Source: Pseudomonas xantholysinigenes
GTDB taxonomy: Bacteria > Pseudomonadota > Gammaproteobacteria > Pseudomonadales > Pseudomonadaceae
DNA: 64,000 nt
Direction of reading: 5' to 3'
NCBI RefSeq assembly: GCF_014268885.2
Contig: NZ_CP077095.1
Coordinates: 1,431,501-1,495,500 of the forward strand
Of the stretch, positions 1 to 12,292 are shown in pieces (position 1 is the stretch's first letter; each line of letters starts with the position of its first letter). The notes under the pieces were generated by a model, which was given only the letters and a program-made list of their open reading frames with translations, did no database searches and was not told the origin of the DNA. A program made the translations under genes and the position numbers.

Positions 1-67
1 TTTCGCCTTGCCTGACCTTCGTCTCAAGACTTTTCGTACAGAGCCTGGTGTGTATTCGGTCTGGCTA

Positions 68-3000
68 TCATTTAAGTCCATAAACAGTCGAGCGGTCTCC
101 CATCTCTGGGAAAAGATGTTTTTTGATGGAAAGTGCCCAATTCGTGCCGTTGTGTGCATGGACAGCGAAGTTCTTCAATATCCCGGGTGCCGGCGTAGTC
201 GTCCAGCCATGATGAGTTACTGGCCAACTACCGAGGAACTGCCGATGGCACTCCTCCAGCTCGGGGCGTGTCGGCAGTCGCATGCCTCGGGCGGCAACAG
301 TTTGTTGAGCCCTCCAGTAGAGATCTCCGCCGAGGGTTGCGACCTGAATAACATTGCTGACGGTTACGTTATATTGGCCGGATTGGCCTGTGCTGTCTTG
401 CACAGTTATTGTTGCCACGCCGTTGGCTCTGGCATAAATCCGGCCATTGGTGTCCGTCGTCACTACGCCGGTATTGCTAGACGTATAGGTATAGGGTGGA
501 GTGCCGTTGCTGGGTATCCGTGTGGCAGTGGAATTCGCCGGCCAAACCAATGGAACCGTACCTGGATTGTAAAGCCTGCCATTGAGTGTCACGGGTGATG
601 GATCCAGAGCGAAAGGCGATTTCACGGTGAAACCGCGGATGTTCGAACCCGGCACGCCCGCCTGCTGCGCGAAGGCTCTCAGGCTATGCGAGCCCACCGC
701 CAAGTTGGTAACAGCATGAACCCAGCTACCTGCGAGATTGACGGTAGCGGCGCCCTTGCTTAGGTTTCCATCAAAGATTTCGACCCGCTCGTTTGCTGCG
801 GCGCTCCCATAGACTGACACTCGGGTGTCAGTAGTCGAGCCGTTCTGCGGCACTTCGCCCTTGGTATCTTGCACACTTGTAATGGTAGGTATGACAACGG
901 CCTTCACGGTGAAACTCCAGGTGTTCGACTCCCTGTTGGCGCCATACACCGCCCTGGCTTTCAAGACATGTGGGGCCTGTGACAACCCACTGACTTGCTT
1001 GCTCCAATTGCCGTTGTCGTCGACAGGCACGATACCCTGGGCCGTCCCTCCGTCGAACAGCTCGATCTGCTGGCCCACGGCGGCTTTACCCGAAGCGGTG
1101 ACCACGGTGGCGTAGGTGCTGCCATTGTTGGGGATCGCAGTGTTGTTGGGCTCGACCACTTGGATAATGCTGGGTGCCAAATCGGCGATCACGCTGAAGC
1201 TTCGCTCGGCGGACTCTGGCTGAGCGCCATACAAGGCACGGGCTTTCAGCCGATGGCTGCCCTCGGTCAAACCGGGCAATACTTTCGTCCATGCACCACT
1301 GGCATTGACGTCGAGCACGCCCTTGGATTGATTGTTGTCGAACAGTTCGACCTGCTGATTGGCGGTTGCTGTCCCCGTCACGGTCACACTGGTATCGACG
1401 GTATGGCCACCCGCTGGCACCTCTCTGCGCGAGTCCTTCACGCTGCTCAGGGTTGGCTTGACGGCCTGCGCCACATTCACCACCCAAGGCTTGGACTGCT
1501 CACCCGAGCCATACAGTGCCTTGGCCACGAACGAATGCCTGGCCACGTTCAGGCCTGGTACCTGCAATGTCCACCGGCCGGTGTGATCGGAGGTGGCCTT
1601 GCCTTTGGACTGGTTGCCGTCGAATACCTCGACCTGCCGATCCGGGCTGCTTTGCCCGACCAAGGCGAGGTTGGTATCGACAGTCGTGCCGCCATTGGCC
1701 ACGGCACCATTGCTGTCGCGCACGTCGTCAATGGTTGGGGTCAGGTTCTCCAACACCTCGAAGCGGCGTGGCAGTGAAACATTGCCGCTGCCATCTCGCG
1801 CATGGGCGGTCAGCAGATACGCTTTAGGGACGAGGTTGGACAAGACATGTGTCCACTGGCCAAGGCCATTGGCTTGAACGGTGCCCTTGGGCTGGTCGCC
1901 ATCGAAAAGTTCAAGGGTGGATTCGAGGGTGGCTGAGCCGCTGAGTGTGACGCGACTCTGGAACGTGCTGCCGCCATCGGTGATTTCGCCATCGGCATCT
2001 TCGGCACGCTCGATCTTTGGTATCACCCAGTCATGGTGGAGTTTGAAGGCGTAGTTGGTTTGCGGGAACGGCAAGGCCATGTCTTCACTGGCATTTTCCG
2101 CAAATCCCACCCGGCACTTCGCGGTCAAGGGTGTGTCCTGGCCCAGCTGTTCGAGTTCGCTGCGAGGTACGCTCTGGCTGATCCCGTTGCGGATGTCCGC
2201 GGCGCTCAGTGCCTTGCCCTGAAGCAGGTCGATACGTACATCAACGTTTGCAGCATCCTTGCCCGCCAGGTACAGCCAGACTTTCTGATTCTCGGCAATG
2301 AAGTGCCAGGTCGTTCCAAGGGTGCAGGTAGCGTTACCAGAAAAGGTGGCCAGGTTTACGATACCTTGCCTGGCTTCGGTGATCAGCGGCGACACCAACT
2401 GCGCATCGGCAAGTGGCGCGATGTCCAGTTTGGTGAAGTCAGACAATTGCTCACGCTGATAGCGTATGACCGAGTATGCCAATGACACTGCCCAGTCTAT
2501 GTTGGCGCCAATCACGTGGGCCGGTATCTTGAATGGCATCTTGCCTGGCGTGGTGACCGTCTTTTGTTGGTCTGCAGGTGTGCCGATACCGGGTGTGCCT
2601 ACCCACATCAAGGTGATCAGGTCGTTGGCTTCCATGCTCGGGTAGTCGACCTCCACAGTCACACCGTCGATGCCTCGAACAGGGTCCAGCTTGCCGTCTG
2701 GAGCTTCCAGCACCTCGGGGCCAGGCAGCTTGCCGATCAGCTTGCCGATGACCAGCTCCAGCACCTCGGAGTACTCGAATTGACCGTCAACGGCGCGTTT
2801 CAGGGTGTACAGCACCCGCACCACGCTGTTCAGGTTGGCTGTTACCAGGCGACGTTCGATGGAGAACGTCAGCGGTTTGCCCTTGAGCGGTTCTGTAATC
2901 GGTATCCAGTCCTTGGCGCTGCCATTTTCCGGATCTTCACCCAGCCAGAACCAGGTCAGGATATCGCCCTTGGCGGTGCCTGGGTAATCCACCCGCAGTG

Positions 3001-4630
3001 TCACTGGCCCGGGGTGCAACTCTGGGTCCAGTACCCCCTCGGGCGCTTCGTCCACGCTGGGGGCTGGCAATGTCGCCGGCAGCGCCGCGACCAGCACTTT
3101 AAGGTGTGAGGAGTTGCGGACACTGGCTGGGGCCTGCTGATCGTTTGATACCCGATAGCTCACATCCAGCCGACCACCGCGCAGGAGGCCGATATGTTCC
3201 TCGCCCACCCCTAGATAGAACGGCTGGCCTACCTCGTTGTTGGATACCACGTGCTCCATTTCGTGCAGGTGGGGTAAGCCTGCTGCCGTTGTCCCTGCCC
3301 AGCGGACGTTGACGAGATCACCGGCCGCCATCCCCTCGTAAGCGGGAATCACCACGTGGGCCCGCTCGAGCGTTGGGTCCAGGCGATCTCCGATCAATTC
3401 ATGAATGTCAGGTGCCTCCAGCGGGGCGGAACCGACAATCGTCACCGTGGTTCGCTTGGAAGAGGAAGGGGGGGCGCCGCTGGCGGGCTGCAGTACGTAG
3501 GATGCGACGATCTTCCCTCCCGCGCCTTCGCGCACCACTTCATTGGGAATGGGCACTTCCAGGATGGCGGGCAGATTATCGATGCGCTTGGTTTCATCGT
3601 GTTTGCCTACTTCGGCATCATTGACCAGGGTCACCCAACTGACGATGACCGTATCGTCGTAGGCGAACGGTGGATTGCGTACTTCAACCTGTACCGTGGC
3701 GTCCTCATCGCCAAGTTCGCTCAGGTCCAATTGGCCATCCCGGGCCTCTTTGACAAAGGGCGGGGCCAGTTTCCAGGCGCCTACGTCTACTTCCACGTAG
3801 GTCCGCAGCGACCAATCCGTGGAGAAGTTCCAGACCTCGTCGTAGACCTGGTAGTGAACCAGTAGATTCGGAGAGTCACCAGCGGCAAGGATGGTTGCCT
3901 GATCCACGAGGATGATGATGGGGTCTTTCCCTGCGGCCTCCTGTTCGGTCACGGTATGGAACAAAGATACCGTTCCCCAGCGCAGTTGGATGGTGTCCCA
4001 GGGCGCGCGGTTGTCGTACCAGCCAATCTTCACCTCCACCCCTTCCTCCAGGTGGCTTGCCTTAACCCTCTTCTTCAAGAGGTTTGCTTTCACCCCCACC
4101 TTCAGGAGGATTGCCTTCACCCACTCCACCAGGCGGCTTGCCGCCACACAGTTTTCCATCACATCGTCGGGAAGCACCGGTGCTGGCAGCTGTGAGTGAC
4201 CAGGCAGGTGTGGGTCGCGGTCATAATCGCCAGGCAGCTTCGTTGCGATCAGCAGGCGAAGTGGGATGGAGTCTTCCGCCGGGCCGCCGACCGGGGTCAG
4301 GCGGTACAGGACTTCCTCTACCCAACCGTCCACCATTGCCTGGGTATCAAGGAACAGGATGGTGCGTTCGTGCTCTTCGCCTGCCGCCACCTCATGGGTT
4401 TCCAGAACGAGCCCGTCCCACAGCACTTCCAGCTTGTCACCCACCTGTTTGCCCAGGTAAGGGTCGATGGCGATCAGCAGGCCCTCTTCGAACTGAGTCA
4501 GCAGGTTCCGGTTGATGCCCCCGTCCCCTCCGCGTATGGGGGTGGCCATGCCGGCAACCAGCAATGGACGCAGGGTGGCGGAAATGCTCTCGCGGTCAAG
4601 GGTAGGGAAAAGCTCAAGCACATTGATCAT
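68..4630 (-). CDS. Very large multi-Ig-domain protein (1520 aa), function unknown
   Basis: The ATG at 4630 follows a GAGGA ribosome site about nine bases upstream. The first ~870 residues form successive Ig-like beta-sandwich modules with the recurring pattern AP-x-V-x-EA...G-x-LDP...YPG/YEGM-x-x-GD...W-x-GT. Five ~94-residue bacterial Ig repeats follow at about 870, 961, 1056, 1151 and 1245, each with GG-T-x-DT, VE-x-FDG and GSH-x-L-x-A-like motifs. A Big_2-like domain lies near 1340-1430. A short C-terminal module contains RLPT-x-PEL and WPVTHHGWT. No Sec signal or membrane segment is visible. Residues ~163-190 are a 9-aa tandem repeat. The N-terminal third is paralogous to the 779-aa protein at the operon head (shared IDP...GD and IPGHS/LPGHS motifs). 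It is the last gene of a five-gene leftward cluster. Adhesin or scaffold are guesses. The domain family is fairly sure, the role unknown. Confidence 0.8.
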   Translation of the reverse strand: MINVLELFPTLDRESISATLRPLLVAGMATPIRGGDGGINRNLLTQFEEGLLIAIDPYLGKQVGDKLEVLWDGLVLETHEVAAGEEHERTILFLDTQAMVDGWVEEVLYRLTPVGGPAEDSIPLRLLIATKLPGDYDRDPHLPGHSQLPAPVLPDDVMENCVAASRLVEWVKAILLKVGVKANLLKKRVKASHLEEGVEVKIGWYDNRAPWDTIQLRWGTVSLFHTVTEQEAAGKDPIIILVDQATILAAGDSPNLLVHYQVYDEVWNFSTDWSLRTYVEVDVGAWKLAPPFVKEARDGQLDLSELGDEDATVQVEVRNPPFAYDDTVIVSWVTLVNDAEVGKHDETKRIDNLPAILEVPIPNEVVREGAGGKIVASYVLQPASGAPPSSSKRTTVTIVGSAPLEAPDIHELIGDRLDPTLERAHVVIPAYEGMAAGDLVNVRWAGTTAAGLPHLHEMEHVVSNNEVGQPFYLGVGEEHIGLLRGGRLDVSYRVSNDQQAPASVRNSSHLKVLVAALPATLPAPSVDEAPEGVLDPELHPGPVTLRVDYPGTAKGDILTWFWLGEDPENGSAKDWIPITEPLKGKPLTFSIERRLVTANLNSVVRVLYTLKRAVDGQFEYSEVLELVIGKLIGKLPGPEVLEAPDGKLDPVRGIDGVTVEVDYPSMEANDLITLMWVGTPGIGTPADQQKTVTTPGKMPFKIPAHVIGANIDWAVSLAYSVIRYQREQLSDFTKLDIAPLADAQLVSPLITEARQGIVNLATFSGNATCTLGTTWHFIAENQKVWLYLAGKDAANVDVRIDLLQGKALSAADIRNGISQSVPRSELEQLGQDTPLTAKCRVGFAENASEDMALPFPQTNYAFKLHHDWVIPKIERAEDADGEITDGGSTFQSRVTLSGSATLESTLELFDGDQPKGTVQANGLGQWTHVLSNLVPKAYLLTAHARDGSGNVSLPRRFEVLENLTPTIDDVRDSNGAVANGGTTVDTNLALVGQSSPDRQVEVFDGNQSKGKATSDHTGRWTLQVPGLNVARHSFVAKALYGSGEQSKPWVVNVAQAVKPTLSSVKDSRREVPAGGHTVDTSVTVTGTATANQQVELFDNNQSKGVLDVNASGAWTKVLPGLTEGSHRLKARALYGAQPESAERSFSVIADLAPSIIQVVEPNNTAIPNNGSTYATVVTASGKAAVGQQIELFDGGTAQGIVPVDDNGNWSKQVSGLSQAPHVLKARAVYGANRESNTWSFTVKAVVIPTITSVQDTKGEVPQNGSTTDTRVSVYGSAAANERVEIFDGNLSKGAATVNLAGSWVHAVTNLAVGSHSLRAFAQQAGVPGSNIRGFTVKSPFALDPSPVTLNGRLYNPGTVPLVWPANSTATRIPSNGTPPYTYTSSNTGVVTTDTNGRIYARANGVATITVQDSTGQSGQYNVTVSNVIQVATLGGDLYWRAQQTVAARGMRLPTRPELEECHRQFLGSWPVTHHGWTTTPAPGILKNFAVHAHNGTNWALSIKKHLFPEMGDRSTVYGLK
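4035..4151 (-). repeat. 27-bp tandem repeat inside the 1520-aa Ig gene
   Basis: Three full 27-bp units lie end to end at 4062-4088, 4089-4115 and 4116-4142, with degenerate partial copies on both sides. In the coding frame they give a 9-residue unit of the type VKA-x-LLK-x-x (VKAILLKVG, VKANLLKKR, VKASHLEEG). The corresponding stretch of the 779-aa paralogue has no such repeat, so this looks like an in-frame minisatellite inserted in an Ig-like domain. Confidence 0.8.
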
Positions 4631-4642
4631 GATGTGGCATCC

Positions 4643-6292
4643 TCAATCATGGCAGTCGACGCCCGCAGGGCGAGGGGAGGGGCACCTACTGGTCGATTGC
4701 GCCGGACTACCTGCTGCCAGTTGATCGGCGGGCACGTAGGTGAAAGGCTGGGGGCTTTTCAGGTCCATGCGTAACAGCGGCAGGAAACGTTCGGTGCGGG
4801 TGTAGTAGTCGTGCTGGATGAACTGCGCCTGGGGCAGGGCGTTGCTGCCGCTGGCATAGAGCACTGATTCCAGTGGAATTTGCGTGGGGATGTCGTCGGG
4901 CCAGGCCGCCATCATGATTTCATTGTGGTCGCTCCTGTTGGGTAGTTGACCGCGCACATCGATGCTCAATTGAAACTGCTTGGCGCTGTTGCTGAATGCG
5001 CAGCTGGTTCCCGGGTTGCTTGCATACTTGGCACGCCAGGCCTCGACGGTGTTGATACCAAGTACTTCGCATTCACCACGGAAGGTGCAGGGGTTGGTGC
5101 TGTTGGAGGTGCCGGCGTTGTAGGGGTAGGCACAGCGCAGCGTTGGGCGGTAGGCGGTGGGGGCTGCCAGCTCGCGAAAGGTGAAGGCATAGTTGCCGCG
5201 GATTTGCAGAAGGTTAATATCCGCACGCACGTAGCTGAACGATACCCCGTTGTTCTTGTGCGAGGCTGGGCTTGGGTTCCAGGCTGGAAACGCGGTAGTT
5301 GCCAAATTGTTGCGCAGCAATATGCCATTGCAGTTGAAGGCGGCGCTGCCGTCGTTGCAGGCGGCGGCAGTGTCGGCGAAGCGTTTGTTGAGTTTTTGTG
5401 CCAGTTGATAGCCAATGTACAGCTGATCCTGCAGGTTGAAACCGAACGCCTGGCCAGCGGGCTGGTCGGGGTCGATGCGCAGCACCGGCAGCCATTCGCC
5501 GGTGGCGTCGAACCAGTCGCGTTGATCTTGCTGCGCGGCACGCAGGCCGCCTTGCATGCGGCTGTCATAGACCAGCGCCTCGATCGCCAGGCGTGTGGGC
5601 GCTTGCACATCCCAGTTGCGCACCAGCAGCTCGACGGCCTTTTCGCCGGGCTTGCCGAGCAAGGCATGGGCTTGCAGTGTTGCCCGGAACTGAGCCATGT
5701 CGTCGGCGTTGAAGGCGCACTGGGCGGCAGGTTTTTCGCCCTGCTGGCGGAAATACGCCAGCCAGCTGTCGGCGTCGGTGACGCCCAATGCCGCGCAGGA
5801 CCCATGGTCGGCATGGCTGGCGGGTGTGGCGGTAACGGGCGCACAGCCCAGGTCCGGGCGTGCCGGGTTATCGTCAGTGGGTAGCGGATGGCTGCACAAG
5901 GCCTCATAGGATTTACCTTGGCTGGCTGCGCTGAACAGGTCGGCGACAATCGCCCCGTGGCTGCTGGGCAGCATGCTGCTGCCCAGGTCTGCACGCAGGA
6001 ACAGCAGGCGTTCGCTGCCGCGTGCCTCAGCGGCTGGATCGTGTTCCCAGAAGCGATCGCCGGTATCGTCGCCGCGCGTGCGCAGCAGCACGCCGGTACA
6101 TTGCCAGGCCGGCTTGTCGATGGCGCAGCGGGTGGCGCTGGCGCGATAGCGATTGTTCAGCAGCTGCGCGGTTTCCGGGCCGCTGGCAGCGGCACGCGGT
6201 ACTGCGGCAGGTTGTGGTGCATGTGCGGTGCATCCAGCGAGCAGCAACAGGCTGGCAACCCACATCAGTAGACGAAGGTATCTGGAGCTCAT
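4643..6292 (-). CDS. Lipoprotein with two halovibrin/HvnA-like domains (549 aa)
   Basis: The ATG at 6292 is preferred because AAGAG lies nine bases upstream; an in-frame GTG at 6298 is possible. The N-terminus is a lipoprotein signal: charged start, hydrophobic core, LLAGC with Cys21. Thr22 follows, so outer-membrane sorting is expected. The mature part is an internal duplication. Copy one starts near residue 45 (LLNNRYRAS...W-x-C-x-GVLLR) and copy two near 299 (KLNKRFADT...F-x-C-x-GILLR). Both continue with a WNPSP/WEHDP-like stretch, an S-x-LRAD/S-x-VRAD motif, several cysteines and a final LP-x-LR-x-D. This resembles Pseudomonas proteins annotated halovibrin HvnA, after the secreted NAD-glycohydrolases of Vibrio fischeri. 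Family assignment is from memory, and catalytic activity cannot be judged here. It lies 24 bases downstream of the 316-aa gene. Confidence 0.65.
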   Translation of the reverse strand: MSSRYLRLLMWVASLLLLAGCTAHAPQPAAVPRAAASGPETAQLLNNRYRASATRCAIDKPAWQCTGVLLRTRGDDTGDRFWEHDPAAEARGSERLLFLRADLGSSMLPSSHGAIVADLFSAASQGKSYEALCSHPLPTDDNPARPDLGCAPVTATPASHADHGSCAALGVTDADSWLAYFRQQGEKPAAQCAFNADDMAQFRATLQAHALLGKPGEKAVELLVRNWDVQAPTRLAIEALVYDSRMQGGLRAAQQDQRDWFDATGEWLPVLRIDPDQPAGQAFGFNLQDQLYIGYQLAQKLNKRFADTAAACNDGSAAFNCNGILLRNNLATTAFPAWNPSPASHKNNGVSFSYVRADINLLQIRGNYAFTFRELAAPTAYRPTLRCAYPYNAGTSNSTNPCTFRGECEVLGINTVEAWRAKYASNPGTSCAFSNSAKQFQLSIDVRGQLPNRSDHNEIMMAAWPDDIPTQIPLESVLYASGSNALPQAQFIQHDYYTRTERFLPLLRMDLKSPQPFTYVPADQLAAGSPAQSTSRCPSPRPAGVDCHD

Positions 6293-6316
6293 ATCCACTC
6301 ACTCTTTTCGGAATGC

Positions 6317-7267
6317 TTAAGTCGCCAGCCCCAAGGCTTGCAGGTGGGAGTCGGTGGCGTGGCTGCTGGCATTGGCATTGGCGTCGTCGCCATCGAGGTC
6401 ATACGCCCAGGCTGTGCCGGCCCCCAGTGCATCCGCAGTCCAGAAGGCATAAGGCAACCAGCCGGTGTACTGGGTTACTGGCCAGTTATCCGGGTAGTAG
6501 ATTTGCCACAGTCGCCTGAAGTCCGCCAAAGGCACGGGGACCAGACCTGCTGTTGCGCAGGCGCCCTGCATGCCTTGCCAGTCACAGGAGGCGCTGAGGA
6601 AGTGCATCACTCGCATACCGGTGATCGTCAGCGGGTAGGACTGCGTTTGCCCCTCGCTGTCGGTCGCGGTGATGCGACAGCTGCCATTGGCCAGTGCGGT
6701 CACTTCGCCCGTGTCGATCACCGTGGCAATGTCGGGATCGCTGCTGGTATAGACATAGGGCGCGCGCCCCCAGTCGGCGGGGCGCTGCATGCGGGCCTGT
6801 TCCGGCACGTTGCGTGGGGGGAAGCCGGCAATGGAAAGGTAGTGGGTGCCGTTCAGGTCAAGCTTGGCCGCCTGGTCGAAGCCCCCGATGATGTGCAATG
6901 TCGTGGTGGCGCTGTCGCTGCCTCCTGCGCTGAACTCGACCCGATAACCGACCTCCAGCGTCCCACCTTGCGCTGCGCTGAACAGGGCCTTGGGGATGTC
7001 ATAGAACAAGACATCCTTGCCAACGCTGCTTTGGTTGATCGGCAGGTCATCGGTGAAGGTACTGACCGTGAGGTATACATGGTCGCGGTAAGCCATGCCG
7101 CTCCATGCCTTGATGCGCACGGTCGCGCCGTTGTCGGGCAGGTTCCTTGGATCGAGCACATTGTTTTCGTCGGCTTCTTCCACACTGGGCGGGGACAGTG
7201 CAAGGGGGCCTGCGACAAACAATTTGCGCAATTTGCGCAGCAAACCCGTGATCCAGGCGATGATCAT
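6317..7267 (-). CDS. Ig-like/Big_2-like protein with C-terminal lectin-like module (316 aa)
   Basis: The start at 7267 is chosen because GGAGG stands seven bases before it; longer in-frame extensions run into the upstream gene. The first ~20 residues are amphipathic and basic (WITGLLRKLRKLF), without a clear cleavage site. Residues ~25-130 form one Ig-like module (PSVEEADENNVLDP start, GY-x-V-x-F end). Residues ~135-215 resemble Big_2 (YTSSDPDIATV, TALANGSCRITATD). The last ~100 residues contain WPVTQYTGWLPYAFWTAD and an acidic tail, matching in layout the end of the 1520-aa protein (WPVTHHGWT). The C-terminal module recalls DUF1566/Lcl-type domains, but that is a weak resemblance. Third of five genes in the cluster. 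Function unknown. Confidence 0.7.
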   Translation of the reverse strand: MIIAWITGLLRKLRKLFVAGPLALSPPSVEEADENNVLDPRNLPDNGATVRIKAWSGMAYRDHVYLTVSTFTDDLPINQSSVGKDVLFYDIPKALFSAAQGGTLEVGYRVEFSAGGSDSATTTLHIIGGFDQAAKLDLNGTHYLSIAGFPPRNVPEQARMQRPADWGRAPYVYTSSDPDIATVIDTGEVTALANGSCRITATDSEGQTQSYPLTITGMRVMHFLSASCDWQGMQGACATAGLVPVPLADFRRLWQIYYPDNWPVTQYTGWLPYAFWTADALGAGTAWAYDLDGDDANANASSHATDSHLQALGLAT

Positions 7268-7328
7268 GAAGGATCCTCCTTGGTTACAGGAACCGGGCCA
7301 TAGGGCCCGGTTGACTGTCAGGCAACAA

Positions 7329-9185
7329 TCACCGGGCGAGCAGGGCCCGCGCGCGTGAGGCGCGGCCCGCGCCCGCTGGGGTGGCGTAGTACGACAGCTT
7401 GCCCTGCAGGCGCTCATCCACCGCACTACTGTCGCCACCACCCGTGGCATGCCCCCAGGTGACCACCTGGTTGTCCGCGGTCAGGGCCGCGAAGCCGTGG
7501 CTGTTCGAGTACAGCGCCACGACGTCCTTGAGCCTTGCCGCTACCGCGTCCGGAATCGTCCCGCCCAGCGCAGCGGTTCCCCAGGCAACTACCTCACCAG
7601 TGCGGCGCAGTGCGGCGAAGGCTTTCGACGAGCCTGCAAGCTGCACCACATCATCCAGGTCGCTGATCTCCTCCGGTACCACGCCACCGGTGTTGGCATC
7701 TCCTCCCCAGGCCACCACCTTGTTGATCCGGCCGTTGCCGCGCAGGGCTGCGAACGACTGCCAGGTACTGACCACGGTGAGGATGTCGTTGAAGCCGGCA
7801 ATGATCGGGTTGACTGTTCCGCCGTAGCTTGCGTTACCCCAGGTCTTGACGAAGACTCCCGTCTTCGGCGTGCCATGGCGCAAGGCGAATGCATGGGCAG
7901 TGGCGCAACTGAGTTCCACCACGTCGGTCAACGCCGCGATTTCGTCAGGCACCGTACCGCCGGAGGCAGCGACGCCCCAGCCCACGACTCGATTGGCGCC
8001 GTGCAATGCCGCGAACGCTACGTTGTTGCCCAATACTTCGCTGATGTCGTTGAATCCATCGATGGGGGGCTTCACGGTACCGCCTTTCTCTGAATCGCCC
8101 CAGGCCACCACGGCGCCGTTGCGGCGTAACGCTGCGAACGCGGTACCAGTTGCAGCCAGGCCCGTGACATCGTCCAGCAGCTTGATACTGTCCGGCACCG
8201 TGCCGCCGCTAGCCGCAGCGCCCCACGCGCTCACTTTGCCCTGATCGTTGATCGCTGCGAACGCCACACTGTTACCACTCACTTGCACGTAGGTGCGCGC
8301 CGGCACCGGTGATATGCCGCCACTGTTGACGTCGCCCCAGGCCACCACCTGGCCGCTGTGGGTGCGGGCGGCAAAGGCCGAGCCGGTGCAACTCACTTCG
8401 TTGATATCGGTCATGGTGCCGATGGCGCCTAGCGACCCGCCGCCACAGGCCGGGTTGCCCCATACCACCAGGTCGCCGGTGTTACGATGGGCAGTGAAGG
8501 CGGCTTGACCGGCCACTACGCCGTCCACACCGTTGCCGATCAGGTTGGGTGTATTGAGGGTGACCACATCCGTCGCGCTGCTCGCGCGCAGCAATCGGCT
8601 TGGGTCGGTATCACGGAAGCGGGCAGACGGCGCGCTCCAGCCCGCATCGCCGTCGTACTGCCATTGCACTTCCAGGGGCTGGCCGGTGGTCGAGTCAAAC
8701 GCCATCAGCCAGCGAGATGCGCCCGAGGCCCGGTACGAACCGCGTGACCAGCGCGCGCCCATGACCTTGAGCGTGCCGGGCTGCAGGTTGCTTTTCACGT
8801 TGTAGGTGCTGGCCTCTGACGGGCCTTCAGGCACGCCAGCGCCGCTACGCTCAATGGTGTACGTCAGTGTCACGCTTGCGCCTTCATTGGCTTTCACCAG
8901 TGCGAGAGGGGCTGTGATGTCCAACACGCCATCGGCCTCGGCTGTTTTCGGCAATGTAGCGCTGCCTTCGGCAGACGTGCCTACCCATTCGACAGTGACC
9001 TTGTCACCTGTTTTGATCAGTGCCTTGGCGTTGATCCGAATCGTGGCCCCGTTGGGGACTTTCGCCGGATCAAGCGCACCACCATCGGCCTCGACAATTA
9101 TCGGGGCCTCAAGGCGCGGCGCAGCGGTGCGGCTGACCCGGAAGTTGAGTGGCGCGGAGGGCAGATCGGCTAGGAGGCTAGTCAT
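7329..9185 (-). CDS. Ig domain plus RCC1-like repeat protein (618 aa)
   Basis: The ATG at 9185 (MTSLLAD) follows GGGAAG and lies two bases after the stop of the 779-aa gene, so the two are probably translationally coupled. Residues ~20-135 form one Ig-like module of the type shared by the cluster (LEAPIIVEADGGALDP, VEWVGTS). A linker with WQYDGDAGWS follows. Residues ~238-580 hold nine repeats of about 40-46 residues marked by V-x-WG-x-x-x-x-GG and AFAALR, as in RCC1/BNR-like beta-propellers. No signal peptide or membrane segment is visible. RCC1-like propellers bind protein partners in eukaryotes; what this one binds is unknown. Nine WG repeats exceed the seven blades of classical RCC1, and the repeats are shorter than usual. 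Confidence 0.75.
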   Translation of the reverse strand: MTSLLADLPSAPLNFRVSRTAAPRLEAPIIVEADGGALDPAKVPNGATIRINAKALIKTGDKVTVEWVGTSAEGSATLPKTAEADGVLDITAPLALVKANEGASVTLTYTIERSGAGVPEGPSEASTYNVKSNLQPGTLKVMGARWSRGSYRASGASRWLMAFDSTTGQPLEVQWQYDGDAGWSAPSARFRDTDPSRLLRASSATDVVTLNTPNLIGNGVDGVVAGQAAFTAHRNTGDLVVWGNPACGGGSLGAIGTMTDINEVSCTGSAFAARTHSGQVVAWGDVNSGGISPVPARTYVQVSGNSVAFAAINDQGKVSAWGAAASGGTVPDSIKLLDDVTGLAATGTAFAALRRNGAVVAWGDSEKGGTVKPPIDGFNDISEVLGNNVAFAALHGANRVVGWGVAASGGTVPDEIAALTDVVELSCATAHAFALRHGTPKTGVFVKTWGNASYGGTVNPIIAGFNDILTVVSTWQSFAALRGNGRINKVVAWGGDANTGGVVPEEISDLDDVVQLAGSSKAFAALRRTGEVVAWGTAALGGTIPDAVAARLKDVVALYSNSHGFAALTADNQVVTWGHATGGGDSSAVDERLQGKLSYYATPAGAGRASRARALLAR

Positions 9186-9187
9186 GG

Positions 9188-11527
9188 TCACTTCCCGAAA
9201 GGTTCGACGCGATACTGAACGGTAACCTCGGCATCTACCGATGCCTCGACCGTGGCTTTCGTGAAGTTGCGGGTGAGATTGCCAGTTCCGCCAGCCTCGC
9301 CACTGGTAACAGCTCGGGTGATGGTCTCTATCGGGTTTGCCGCGTTCCCATCCCGGATCCAGTCGACGACCAAGCCATCGCCAGCGGCCAGGCCTGGCCA
9401 CCTTGGAATCAGCACGGGGAGAATGCTGCCTGTCACCGCATCAGGATCAAGCACGCCGTCTTCGATGAGTTCGATGATCGGCGCGTCAAGTTCTCCTCCC
9501 ACGGGCTCGCCCACATTCAGCGTCAGAAAATCAGACGTGCTGGTGCCACCGTTGTTGGCACGCTCCACCCAATAGGACGCTTTCACCGTGCCGCCTTCGT
9601 TGGGTTTGATGTATGCCTTGTCAATGGTGAATGAGATGGGTTTGTCCTTGGTGAACTCGCTGACCGGGATGGAGTCCTCGTACTTGTTACCGTCACTGCC
9701 CTCCCACAGGATATGGATGTAGTCTCCTTTGGCCTTGCCGGAATAATTGGGAACCACCAGCTCGGCTTCCTCCAGGTCGGGAGGGAGCGTGCGGTTGTCC
9801 GGTGCCTCTTTTACGGAGGGGGCGTCAAGTTCGCCCCGAGGATCGCCAACCAGGAACTGTGGCGTGTGCAAGGACTCGCGTGGAGCAGATGCCTGCAGTG
9901 TGGTTTCGGTGTACAGCAGGTAATAGAGTTCCAGCTTGCCGCCGTCGATCTCCTTGATATGTTGGGCGTTGACCTTGAAAGCGATAGGCTCTTTTTTATT
10001 CCAGTCGCCTTGGGAGATTACGTGGTAGCTCAGGTCTGGCAAGTACGTGCTGAGGTCGGGGCGGGTACCCAACCACTGCGGCACGATCACCATGCCGGCT
10101 TGCATGGTGTCGTCCCATGGGATCACTACGGTGGCCTGGGCCAGCGTGGGGTCGATAATGATGCCATCGGCTTCCTCGACATGAGGCGCGGCCAACTTTT
10201 GCAGCTCGCCCAGCACGGCAACGACCAAACCTTTGGATTTGAGATTGGCCGAGCCGTCCGCCTTGATGACTTCGAAGCTGAAAATGGCCTGGGAGGTCGC
10301 CAGCTGGCGTAAATCGTTGATACTCAGCTCGATCTCCACCACATAGCCAAGGCGCTCCAGCGTCTTGCCAGGATAGGTAATGTCCAGGGCGGCACCATCG
10401 GCGGTGGTGCCTCTCAGGCGCATTACGATCTTGTCGCCAACCTTGAAGTTTGGCCCCGATGAAGGGATGGCAATTTCCGCCGTGACGGTGGTGTGTTTGC
10501 CAAGTTCGATTGACTGGCGGCCGGTTTCCGGGTCGTAGTCGGTTTCCTGGATGATGGGAGAATCGATGCGCAAGCTATTGGCATCAACGACGATGCGCAC
10601 TTCGATAGCCCAGTCCTCCGAGCGATTTCGCACCCGATCATACACTTCATAAGTCACCGACAGGCTATCGGAGTCGCCCGCTTCGCGGATGGTCTCTGGC
10701 GTCACAAGTACTTCGATAGGGGATTTTCCGGTCGCCTGATCGGCAGTCAGTATGCACTGTTCGAAAATGCCGCCCCACGATACACGGACCTCATCACCTT
10801 CGACCGCATGTGGGTAAGGCACACCATTAGTCTTGCCGATGGTGAGCGTTATGCCCTTCTCGGCTGTCTCCTTATCCACACCCTCATTGATGATTTCCTC
10901 TGGCAAGGTAAACAGTAACTCCGAGTGCCCCGGAATATCGCCGTTCTGGTCCTGGCCACCTGGGCGGGTCAACTTGACATGAAGTTTCTGCTCGACGGAA
11001 TCCTGATCACTTCCACCGAACGGTTTGATCCGGTACTTGATGACGTGATCGCCATCAATCAATCGCTCCGACTTGACGAATAGTGTGACCTGTTTGCCTT
11101 TTTCGCTTTCACGGATGGTTTTTGGCGCCACCACCACATCGTCCAACATGATACTGACCGTGTCGCCAACCGCCATGCCGCTCCAGGGATCGATGAAGAT
11201 CTGCAGGCCGTCATTCGGGAAGTTGTCTACGGCCGCGGCAATATTGATGCCCCAGGTTCCCGTAGGTAGCTGTGCAGTCTCGGTATGGCCGGGGATGATG
11301 ATCGGGTTCAGGGCAAAGTTTGTCGGTATCGTGCCGAGTGGCACGATGGCACGCTTGATGCGCAGGGCAAGGGTGTTGCGGCTGTAATGTTCATCCACCT
11401 GGCAGGTGCCGATCAGCTCGCCATCGCGGAGTACTTCGATCTCATCACCCAGATTCAGGCCTGTTTGCGGCCAGACGTAGGTTACAGGGTCTGCGTTGGC
11501 AGGTAGGGTAACGAGGGGCTTGTTCAT
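9188..11527 (-). CDS. Multi-Ig-domain protein (779 aa), head of the five-gene cluster
   Basis: Two close starts exist. The ATG at 11527 (MNKPLV) has AAGGA eight bases upstream, whereas the ATG at 11536 has almost no spacing to it, so 11527 is used. The protein consists of about seven Ig-like modules in series. Typical motifs are IDPWSGMAVGD, EEADGIIIDP, KEAPDNRTLPPD and LVVPNYSGKAKGD, with strands ending in Y-x-V-x or Y-x-I-x. It has no Sec signal, transmembrane helix or LPXTG-like anchor. Its N-terminal half aligns by eye with the N-terminal half of the 1520-aa protein, so the two genes are paralogues. It starts a run of five co-directional genes with gaps of 2 to 61 bases. The cluster lies next to, and is oriented like, the HAD gene. 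Confidence 0.75.
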   Translation of the reverse strand: MNKPLVTLPANADPVTYVWPQTGLNLGDEIEVLRDGELIGTCQVDEHYSRNTLALRIKRAIVPLGTIPTNFALNPIIIPGHTETAQLPTGTWGINIAAAVDNFPNDGLQIFIDPWSGMAVGDTVSIMLDDVVVAPKTIRESEKGKQVTLFVKSERLIDGDHVIKYRIKPFGGSDQDSVEQKLHVKLTRPGGQDQNGDIPGHSELLFTLPEEIINEGVDKETAEKGITLTIGKTNGVPYPHAVEGDEVRVSWGGIFEQCILTADQATGKSPIEVLVTPETIREAGDSDSLSVTYEVYDRVRNRSEDWAIEVRIVVDANSLRIDSPIIQETDYDPETGRQSIELGKHTTVTAEIAIPSSGPNFKVGDKIVMRLRGTTADGAALDITYPGKTLERLGYVVEIELSINDLRQLATSQAIFSFEVIKADGSANLKSKGLVVAVLGELQKLAAPHVEEADGIIIDPTLAQATVVIPWDDTMQAGMVIVPQWLGTRPDLSTYLPDLSYHVISQGDWNKKEPIAFKVNAQHIKEIDGGKLELYYLLYTETTLQASAPRESLHTPQFLVGDPRGELDAPSVKEAPDNRTLPPDLEEAELVVPNYSGKAKGDYIHILWEGSDGNKYEDSIPVSEFTKDKPISFTIDKAYIKPNEGGTVKASYWVERANNGGTSTSDFLTLNVGEPVGGELDAPIIELIEDGVLDPDAVTGSILPVLIPRWPGLAAGDGLVVDWIRDGNAANPIETITRAVTSGEAGGTGNLTRNFTKATVEASVDAEVTVQYRVEPFGK

Positions 11528-11584
11528 CGCGGACATCCTTCTTGATGGGAGGCAAGTGGACGTATTGGATAGCGATGTGGGGAT

Positions 11585-11618
11585 GGCCAACAACTGGCAA
11601 GAATACTAGGTGTTGGCC
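11585..11618. promoter_or_regulatory. Inverted repeat upstream of the Ig-protein cluster
   Basis: GGCCAACA at 11585-11592 and TGTTGGCC at 11611-11618 are perfect complements separated by 18 bases. The site sits about 60 bases upstream of the first Ig gene and just after the HAD gene, in the only gap where a promoter for the cluster could lie. There is no T-run on the minus strand after the stem, so an operator is as likely as a terminator. Confidence 0.4.
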
Positions 11619-11638
11619 GGTTGTTTTGGGGGAAGCGT

Positions 11639-12292
11639 TCAGCGCCAGTCGTGGATCGGCCAGTCACTGGCCTGGGCATGCTCGCGCAACATGGGGTCTG
11701 GATTGACCACGTGGGGGTTGTCGACTTTCAACAGCAATGGCAGGTCATTGCGCGAGTCGGAATAGAAACTCGCTCCCTCCAGGTTTTCCTGCTCCTGGTC
11801 CAGCCATTCCAGCAAGCGGGTGATCTTGCCCTCACGGTAGGTCAACACGCCGTGGGTCTTGCCGGTGTATACGCCATTCAGCGCCTCCAGTTCGATGGCC
11901 AGGTACTCGTCCACGCCCAGGCGCGCCGCGATCGGCCCGACCAGATGAACGCCGCTCGCCGAGATGATCAGGATGCGGTCGCCACGCTGGCGGTGTTCGG
12001 CGATGCAGCGGCAGGCGTCGCCATAGATGATCGGCTCTATTACCTCTTCCACCCAAGGCTCGACCAGGTGCTCGACCTCTTCCAGCGTGCGCCCGGCGAT
12101 GGGCTCCAGGCTGAAGGCCATGTAGTCCTCCATCCGCAGGTGGCCCTTGCCGTAGGCTTCCATCAGTTCATGGTCGCGCTCGAGGAAACTCTTGCCATCG
12201 ACCCAGCCCAGCCGGGCCATCTGTTCGCTCCACAGCGACGCGCAGTCGCCGTGGATGAGGGTTTCGTCCAGATCGAAAATTGCCAGTGCCAT
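11639..12292 (-). CDS. HAD-superfamily (HAD-IB) phosphatase, phosphoserine-phosphatase-like
   Basis: The start MALAIFDLDETL at 12292 puts the DxD motif at Asp7 and Asp9, as normal for this family. Motif II is ISASG and motif IV is SDSRNDLPLL, so the full catalytic set of a Mg-dependent aspartyl-phosphate phosphatase is present. The size (217 aa) fits HAD-IB hydrolases of the SerB-like group. It is the last gene of the ABC transport operon, 13 bases after the ATPase gene. A role in removing phosphate from an imported compound is therefore plausible. The substrate is not evident from sequence, and histidinol phosphate, phosphoserine or other small phosphates are all possible. Confidence 0.85.
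   Translation of the reverse strand: MALAIFDLDETLIHGDCASLWSEQMARLGWVDGKSFLERDHELMEAYGKGHLRMEDYMAFSLEPIAGRTLEEVEHLVEPWVEEVIEPIIYGDACRCIAEHRQRGDRILIISASGVHLVGPIAARLGVDEYLAIELEALNGVYTGKTHGVLTYREGKITRLLEWLDQEQENLEGASFYSDSRNDLPLLLKVDNPHVVNPDPMLREHAQASDWPIHDWR

Follow-up and report, generated by a model that had tools for sequence, protein, structure and literature searches.

An eight-gene locus of immunoglobulin-like, RCC1-propeller and halovibrin-type proteins in Pseudomonas xantholysinigenes and its possible role at the cell surface

Background

The genome of Pseudomonas xantholysinigenes (assembly GCF_014268885.2; 5.61 Mb, single contig NZ_CP077095.1, hereafter C1) carries a locus of eight genes, 18.35 kb in length, which combines proteins with immunoglobulin-like (Ig) repeats, an RCC1-type propeller, an autotransporter and a lipoprotein related to halovibrin. 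The window, i.e. the whole 64,000-nucleotide stretch that was analysed (C1:1431501-1495500), contains five of these genes, here named A to E. A first-pass annotation of the window had described a five-gene locus; all five genes exist and are conserved as a group, and the description was incomplete in that three plus-strand genes beyond the window edge (X, Y and the autotransporter AT) belong to it. No paper on this gene set appeared in the searches made of the open-licence literature. The combination appears to be new and is made of known kinds of component, namely intimin-like tips, halovibrin enzymes and an autotransporter.

Results and discussion

Gene content of the locus

The locus is flanked by two core genes, qor (end 1424791) and a HAD phosphatase gene (start 1443142), names which were assigned by reading the sequences and not from search results. 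Between them, two arms converge: X, Y and the autotransporter on the plus strand, and A, B, C, D and E on the minus strand (Table 1). All eight genes are open reading frames (ORFs) in this genome, and the sizes first given for minus-strand genes are correct. Intergenic gaps in the minus-strand arm are short, with 2 nt between A and B, 61 nt between B and C, 18 nt between C and D, and 12 nt between D and E. The motif AAGGAGG, noticed by eye at 7281-7275, lies upstream of the ATG of C (7267).

Table 1. Genes and elements of the locus (window positions unless preceded by C1; aa, amino acids)
Feature	Position	Strand	Description
Gene A	9188..11527	-	779 aa; six Ig repeats; signal peptide not seen; stops before the last strand of the sixth Ig domain
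Gene B	7329..9185	-	618 aa; begins with a strand like the last one missing from A; one Ig repeat; nine RCC1-type WG repeats
Hairpin	7291..7312	-	Perfect, 9 bp with 4-base loop, in the B-C gap (by eye)
Gene C	6317..7267	-	316 aa; Ig, Big_2 and C-type-lectin-like tip; no barrel or signal peptide
Gene D	4643..6298	-	551 aa (549 from the second start); lipoprotein by eye; two halovibrin-type domains
Gene E	68..4630	-	1520 aa; seven Ig repeats, Big_13-type Ig, weak Big_2, intimin-like C-terminal tip
MITE-like element	C1:1431404-1431546 (right end = window 1..46)		143 bp; between E and AT
Autotransporter AT	C1:1428970-1431249	+	759 aa; PF03797 and pertactin PF03212 above cut-off; left of window
Gene Y	C1:1426855-1428780	+	641 aa; Ig; no Pfam family; left of window
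Gene X	C1:1424862-1426811	+	649 aa; Ig; no Pfam family; left of window

Above the Pfam cut-offs, E matches Big_13, Big_3_5 and Big_6, C matches Big_2 and B matches RCC1_2, with no match in A or D; Big_2 in E remains below the cut-off (17.5 vs 22.8 bits), and the curated families of Pfam and NCBIfam gave nothing above cut-off by which A could be named. Iterating a C-seeded profile over the fetched ORFs revealed further Ig repeats, six in A, one in B, one in C and seven in E, and it is on these counts that the earlier description of multi-Ig proteins holds. The same profile finds four and three repeats in two proteins outside the window.

The minus-strand arm had been described as lower in guanine-cytosine (GC) content than its flanks. 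This is correct on average (0.605 for A-E vs 0.653 for the window from 11640 onward), and it is uneven gene by gene (A 0.571, E 0.592, C 0.619, D 0.630), with B at 0.652. A sigma-70 scan of 12.5 kb gave one site, fewer than in shuffled sequences (2.7), and none before A. Among seven locus proteins (the autotransporter not being one of them), PADLOC gave no matches at E 0.01. In PHROGs, C matched phage proteins with the common Big_2 Ig fold and E matched one unknown family.

Conservation across Pseudomonas

Full-length C (E-value 1e-40 or better) is present in 18 of 398 genomes of the genus, the one studied here included. Of the 17 other genomes, 16 could be judged for the gene before C; in all of these it is an Ig-RCC1 gene, either separate from C or fused to it, and in one case broken in two. 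In the genome left out of this count the contig starts just before C. Moreover, D follows C, whole or interrupted, in 16 of the 17, once with an extra Ig-RCC1 gene between the two, and is reduced in the seventeenth to a fragment of 109 amino acids. The co-occurrence proposed from the sequence of the window is thus borne out for the Ig-RCC1 gene and for D. An autotransporter lies inside the fetched stretch in six of the 17. The locus search seeded with C comprised four loci only and may miss near relatives; an Ig-RCC1 query matches 65 of 119 genomes, mostly via the Ig repeat.

The split between A and B

The ORF listed for B (690 amino acids) opens upstream, within A, and the likely start of B is at 9185, two bases past the stop of A. 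In 12 of the 16 judgeable relatives with full-length C, A and B form a single ORF of 1296-1427 amino acids, and in two genomes A, B and C are all one ORF (G018, 1699 amino acids; G194, 1677 amino acids). The split form is found in the clade of the window, the fused form in most relatives. Alignment to the fused relatives indicates that the sixth Ig domain of A lacks its last strand, A ending ahead of it, and that a matching strand is found in B, after a few residues. The first strand of B may complete the last Ig domain of A and so hold the two proteins together, as far as can be read from the alignment. A programmed frameshift at the junction was considered and rejected, no slippery heptamer being visible by eye; a coupled stop and start fits better.

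The fusion of A and B in most relatives could also be taken as a sign that the locus is decaying, in which A and B are what is left of one broken gene and the whole module is on its way to being lost, and broken genes are indeed present in three of the fetched regions (L068, L080, L084), while a fourth (L129) has the remains of an RCC1 gene at the site. Such decay is very improbable. Six homologues of B (P0135-P0140; 601-618 amino acids, 60-73% identity) start near the same point, and in P. sichuanensis a protein 59% identical to A across its full length ends two residues later, in an ATGA overlap with B; the intact state of all eight genes here likewise speaks against it.

Intimin-like tips in C and E

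The tip of C resembles intimin and invasin by both profile match and predicted structure, and the end of E does so by profile, i.e. in sequence only. The two proteins share with these inverse autotransporters (type Ve) the succession of Ig or Big_2 domains and a C-type-lectin-like tip. They differ from them in having neither a barrel family (Pfam, NCBIfam) nor a signal peptide (hydropathy, eye), and in that the tip is a free protein (C) or the end of a 1520-residue Ig protein (E). The role in adhesion suggested earlier gains support from the intimin-like tip of C. Further weak or Ig-only matches in the lists for C and D were left aside as evidence.

Gene D, a predicted NAD-consuming lipoprotein

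D carries the lipobox LLAGC (by eye) and, as the first-pass annotation had it, duplicated HvnA-like domains: its two domains are homologous to each other (HHalign E 5e-48). No curated family (Pfam, NCBIfam) matches D at any strength. Its homologues include proteins named halovibrin HvnA, one of which (P0121) is 47% identical over 55% of D. HvnA and HvnB are NAD+-glycohydrolases of Vibrio fischeri (NAD, nicotinamide adenine dinucleotide), and PA1914 is listed alongside them. D resembles them in sequence and in its predicted export via a signal or lipobox, and is distinct in its two domains, in that the R-S-E set is mostly lost from one of them, and in its tie to Ig and tip genes. Scored by order, the set is present in 60 of 66 second domains and in 3 of 66 first domains. 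In D itself it lies in the second domain, with E475 (numbering of the 549-residue form) as the glutamate.

In the predicted structure, the only clear fold match of D is CteC, and it lies on domain 1. CteC is a type III secretion system mono-ADP-ribosyltransferase of Chromobacterium violaceum with an R-S-E set, the motif of the cholera-toxin-like class of these enzymes, and excerpts of its description agree with the model of D in the order of R-S-E and in a helical stretch between strands (PMC10810742). In contrast to CteC, D carries a Sec-type lipoprotein signal; a profile of D gave no match among the sequences of the PDB. The modelled fold suggests that D would be a NAD-cleaving or ADP-ribosylating enzyme.

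Export signals

Signal peptides were assessed by the hydropathy of the first 45 residues from the earliest start, together with an inspection of the first 60 by eye; this is a crude test and not a trained predictor, and it can miss a signal where the start is placed too far upstream. Six of the eight locus proteins show no signal peptide (A, B, C, E, X and Y, hydropathy 0.53-1.36), while D (2.57) and AT (2.17) have one of Sec type. The earlier statement that the lipoprotein alone bears an export signal is accurate among A-E, and the neighbouring autotransporter has one as well. The pattern extends to the relatives: none of 57 orthologues (23 of AB, 12 of C, 13 of E, 9 of X or Y) showed a signal peptide, the top values being 1.97 and 2.01, whereas AT orthologues range from 1.58 to 2.71 (n=9) and those of D reach at least 2.23 in seven of nine. 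The low values of AT and D arise because starts were set too early.

AT fits type Va, with a hydrophobic N-terminus, a passenger and a barrel. Its pertactin and barrel domains are those of type Va autotransporters with a pertactin passenger, from which it differs in adjoining signal-less Ig genes in a conserved arrangement.

The lack of a visible signal in six proteins, together with the conserved gene order, would suit a complex that is put together in the cytoplasm and leaves the cell on lysis or by an exporter encoded elsewhere, in the manner of certain large leaderless toxins, the Ig and propeller proteins acting as carrier. We consider this improbable, since the Sec-type signals on D and AT would place parts of the complex in different compartments, and since a disordered release fits poorly with the exported Ig-halovibrin fusions described below. 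Moreover, no Tc-, phage-tail-like or type VI secretion system family was recognised in the locus proteins scanned, and no delivery machine was found that would serve the effector delivery suggested earlier. No type I exporter or C-terminal secretion repeats, as expected of giant RTX adhesins, were seen by eye in the listed ORFs or recovered in the Pfam and NCBIfam scans; unlinked exporters were not searched for.

Halovibrin domains and Ig repeats at other sites

At least five arrangements join HvnA domains in one protein to the same Ig repeats, or to Big_2 with a tip, and all of them have a signal peptide or lipobox by eye (P0089, L072-L074, L117, L126, L127, L118). The last of these lies in the present genome, where an apparently exported protein has two Ig repeats followed by one HvnA domain (L118:6134-7624, C1:4790134-4791624). 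Fourteen halovibrin loci were chosen by hand, not at random, from 121 genomes with a match. Seven of them (L108-L114) are located at a second, shared site on the chromosome, where D homologues are in every case accompanied by an Ig-repeat protein of 568-602 amino acids; two more (L117, L118) are fusions, and in the remaining five (L115, L116, L119, L120, L121) no Ig match was obtained. At the second site, one or two D homologues face the Ig gene, and in six of the seven loci an ORF of 214-224 amino acids lies between.

These distributions bear on the chief rival reading, a plain adhesin array for attachment to surfaces or between cells, in which D is an independent exported enzyme that happens to share the cluster. 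The intimin-like tip of C suits such an array, as do the five halovibrin loci lacking Ig neighbours and the loci at the same site in three genomes (G085, G020, G140), which have no RCC1 gene, C or D. The regularity with which D follows C, together with the repeated fusion of halovibrin domains to the same Ig or tip modules, argues in the opposite direction, and overall we regard the plain array as unlikely.

Several further genes of related composition were observed. In the present genome, a third halovibrin gene has a single domain and no Ig neighbour was seen beside it (L119:5615-6586, C1:661615-662586), and three tandem near-repeat genes of 446, 446 and 459 amino acids carry the same Ig repeat with no apparent signal peptide (L092:8508-13547, C1:3648508-3653547). 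Elsewhere, P0179, P0190 and P0192, one of which carries an Enterobacter name, combine RCC1 repeats with Big_1/Invasin_D3 (below cut-offs in P0190), with no obvious signal peptide.

The insertion site

The gap between qor and the HAD phosphatase gene was read by hand from tables for 149 genomes of the genus; 120 could be placed (convergent flanks on one contig), 27 could not (other contig, other order or no qor match) and two were not in the list. The gap is below 300 bp in 94 of the 120, 449-851 bp in three and above 1 kb in 23, of which 13 were looked into and 10 were not. Five of the 13 (the window, G018, G085, G020, G140) hold a large locus in which X, Y and autotransporter converge on E- and A-like genes; G140 shows a D-like start that can be recognised over its first 50 or so residues only and is fused to other sequence. 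Related genes only are found at three: an RCC1 gene with no Ig match (G089), an Ig gene and an HvnA-Ig gene (G010), and two HvnA genes, one with Big_2 and tip by eye (G111). Unrelated genes fill the other five (G039, G026, G124, G060 and G137, the last seen over 20 kb). Because unrelated genes occur there too (L136, L137), the junction may be a general insertion spot.

Outside this sample, both flanks are present in G151, and the 20 kb fetched for G249 include the HAD flank. In P. sichuanensis, A is preceded by the HAD gene (by eye). The remaining regions among the 20 fetched show neither flank, and therefore the RCC1-C-D module also occurs elsewhere.

The proposal of an acquired island agrees with the empty state of the site in 94 of 120 genomes; no integrase was noticed by eye among the listed ORFs. 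As to integration scars, no transfer RNA gene was found in the sole flank scanned (L002), and no end repeat common to the occupied and four empty sites was visible by eye. An inverted repeat considered as a scar was rejected, because its position is between the two arms and it is one member of a repeated family resembling miniature inverted-repeat transposable elements (MITE-like). Members measure 142-157 bp with AGGCTCTGTACGAAA-type ends, and about ten paired copies exist in this genome: 27 matches to the element end, 20 of them in ten pairs, against none for a control pattern. Another such end (C1:4587040) lies 0.1 kb upstream of a gene for a 332-residue Ig protein (L093:9172-10170), near which an ORF of 2796 amino acids resembles a repeat-rich autotransporter (L093:11555-19945).

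Proposed function

The best-supported reading, to which we give about an even chance, is that the locus encodes an adhesin-guided, NAD-consuming enzyme module at the cell surface, this function being a prediction. The Ig, propeller and lectin-like proteins would bind a target surface, and binding would bring D, the predicted NAD-consuming enzyme, to the target. This would require all six Ig proteins in which no signal is seen (A, B, C, E, X and Y) to act outside the cell, with the autotransporter as their putative surface-anchored partner. The more specific version is rather doubtful as a whole, as it requires jointly that giant Ig, propeller and lectin-tip proteins form a leaderless class, an undescribed route to the surface, donation of an Ig strand between A and B, and a surface-held, NAD-consuming ADP-ribosyltransferase.

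Conclusions

In Arabidopsis, a lectin receptor kinase senses extracellular NAD, according to excerpts of PMC5560858 and PMC6805918. An NAD-consuming enzyme on this bacterium, if the strain is plant-associated, would for this reason offer a concrete hypothesis on immunity. If the adhesin-guided module is real, it would connect the intimin-like tips of adhesins to the halovibrin NAD enzymes, a group whose role had stayed open, and A and B would provide a natural split Ig domain. Furthermore, the export of large signal-less Ig proteins, which are common in Pseudomonas, would become approachable.
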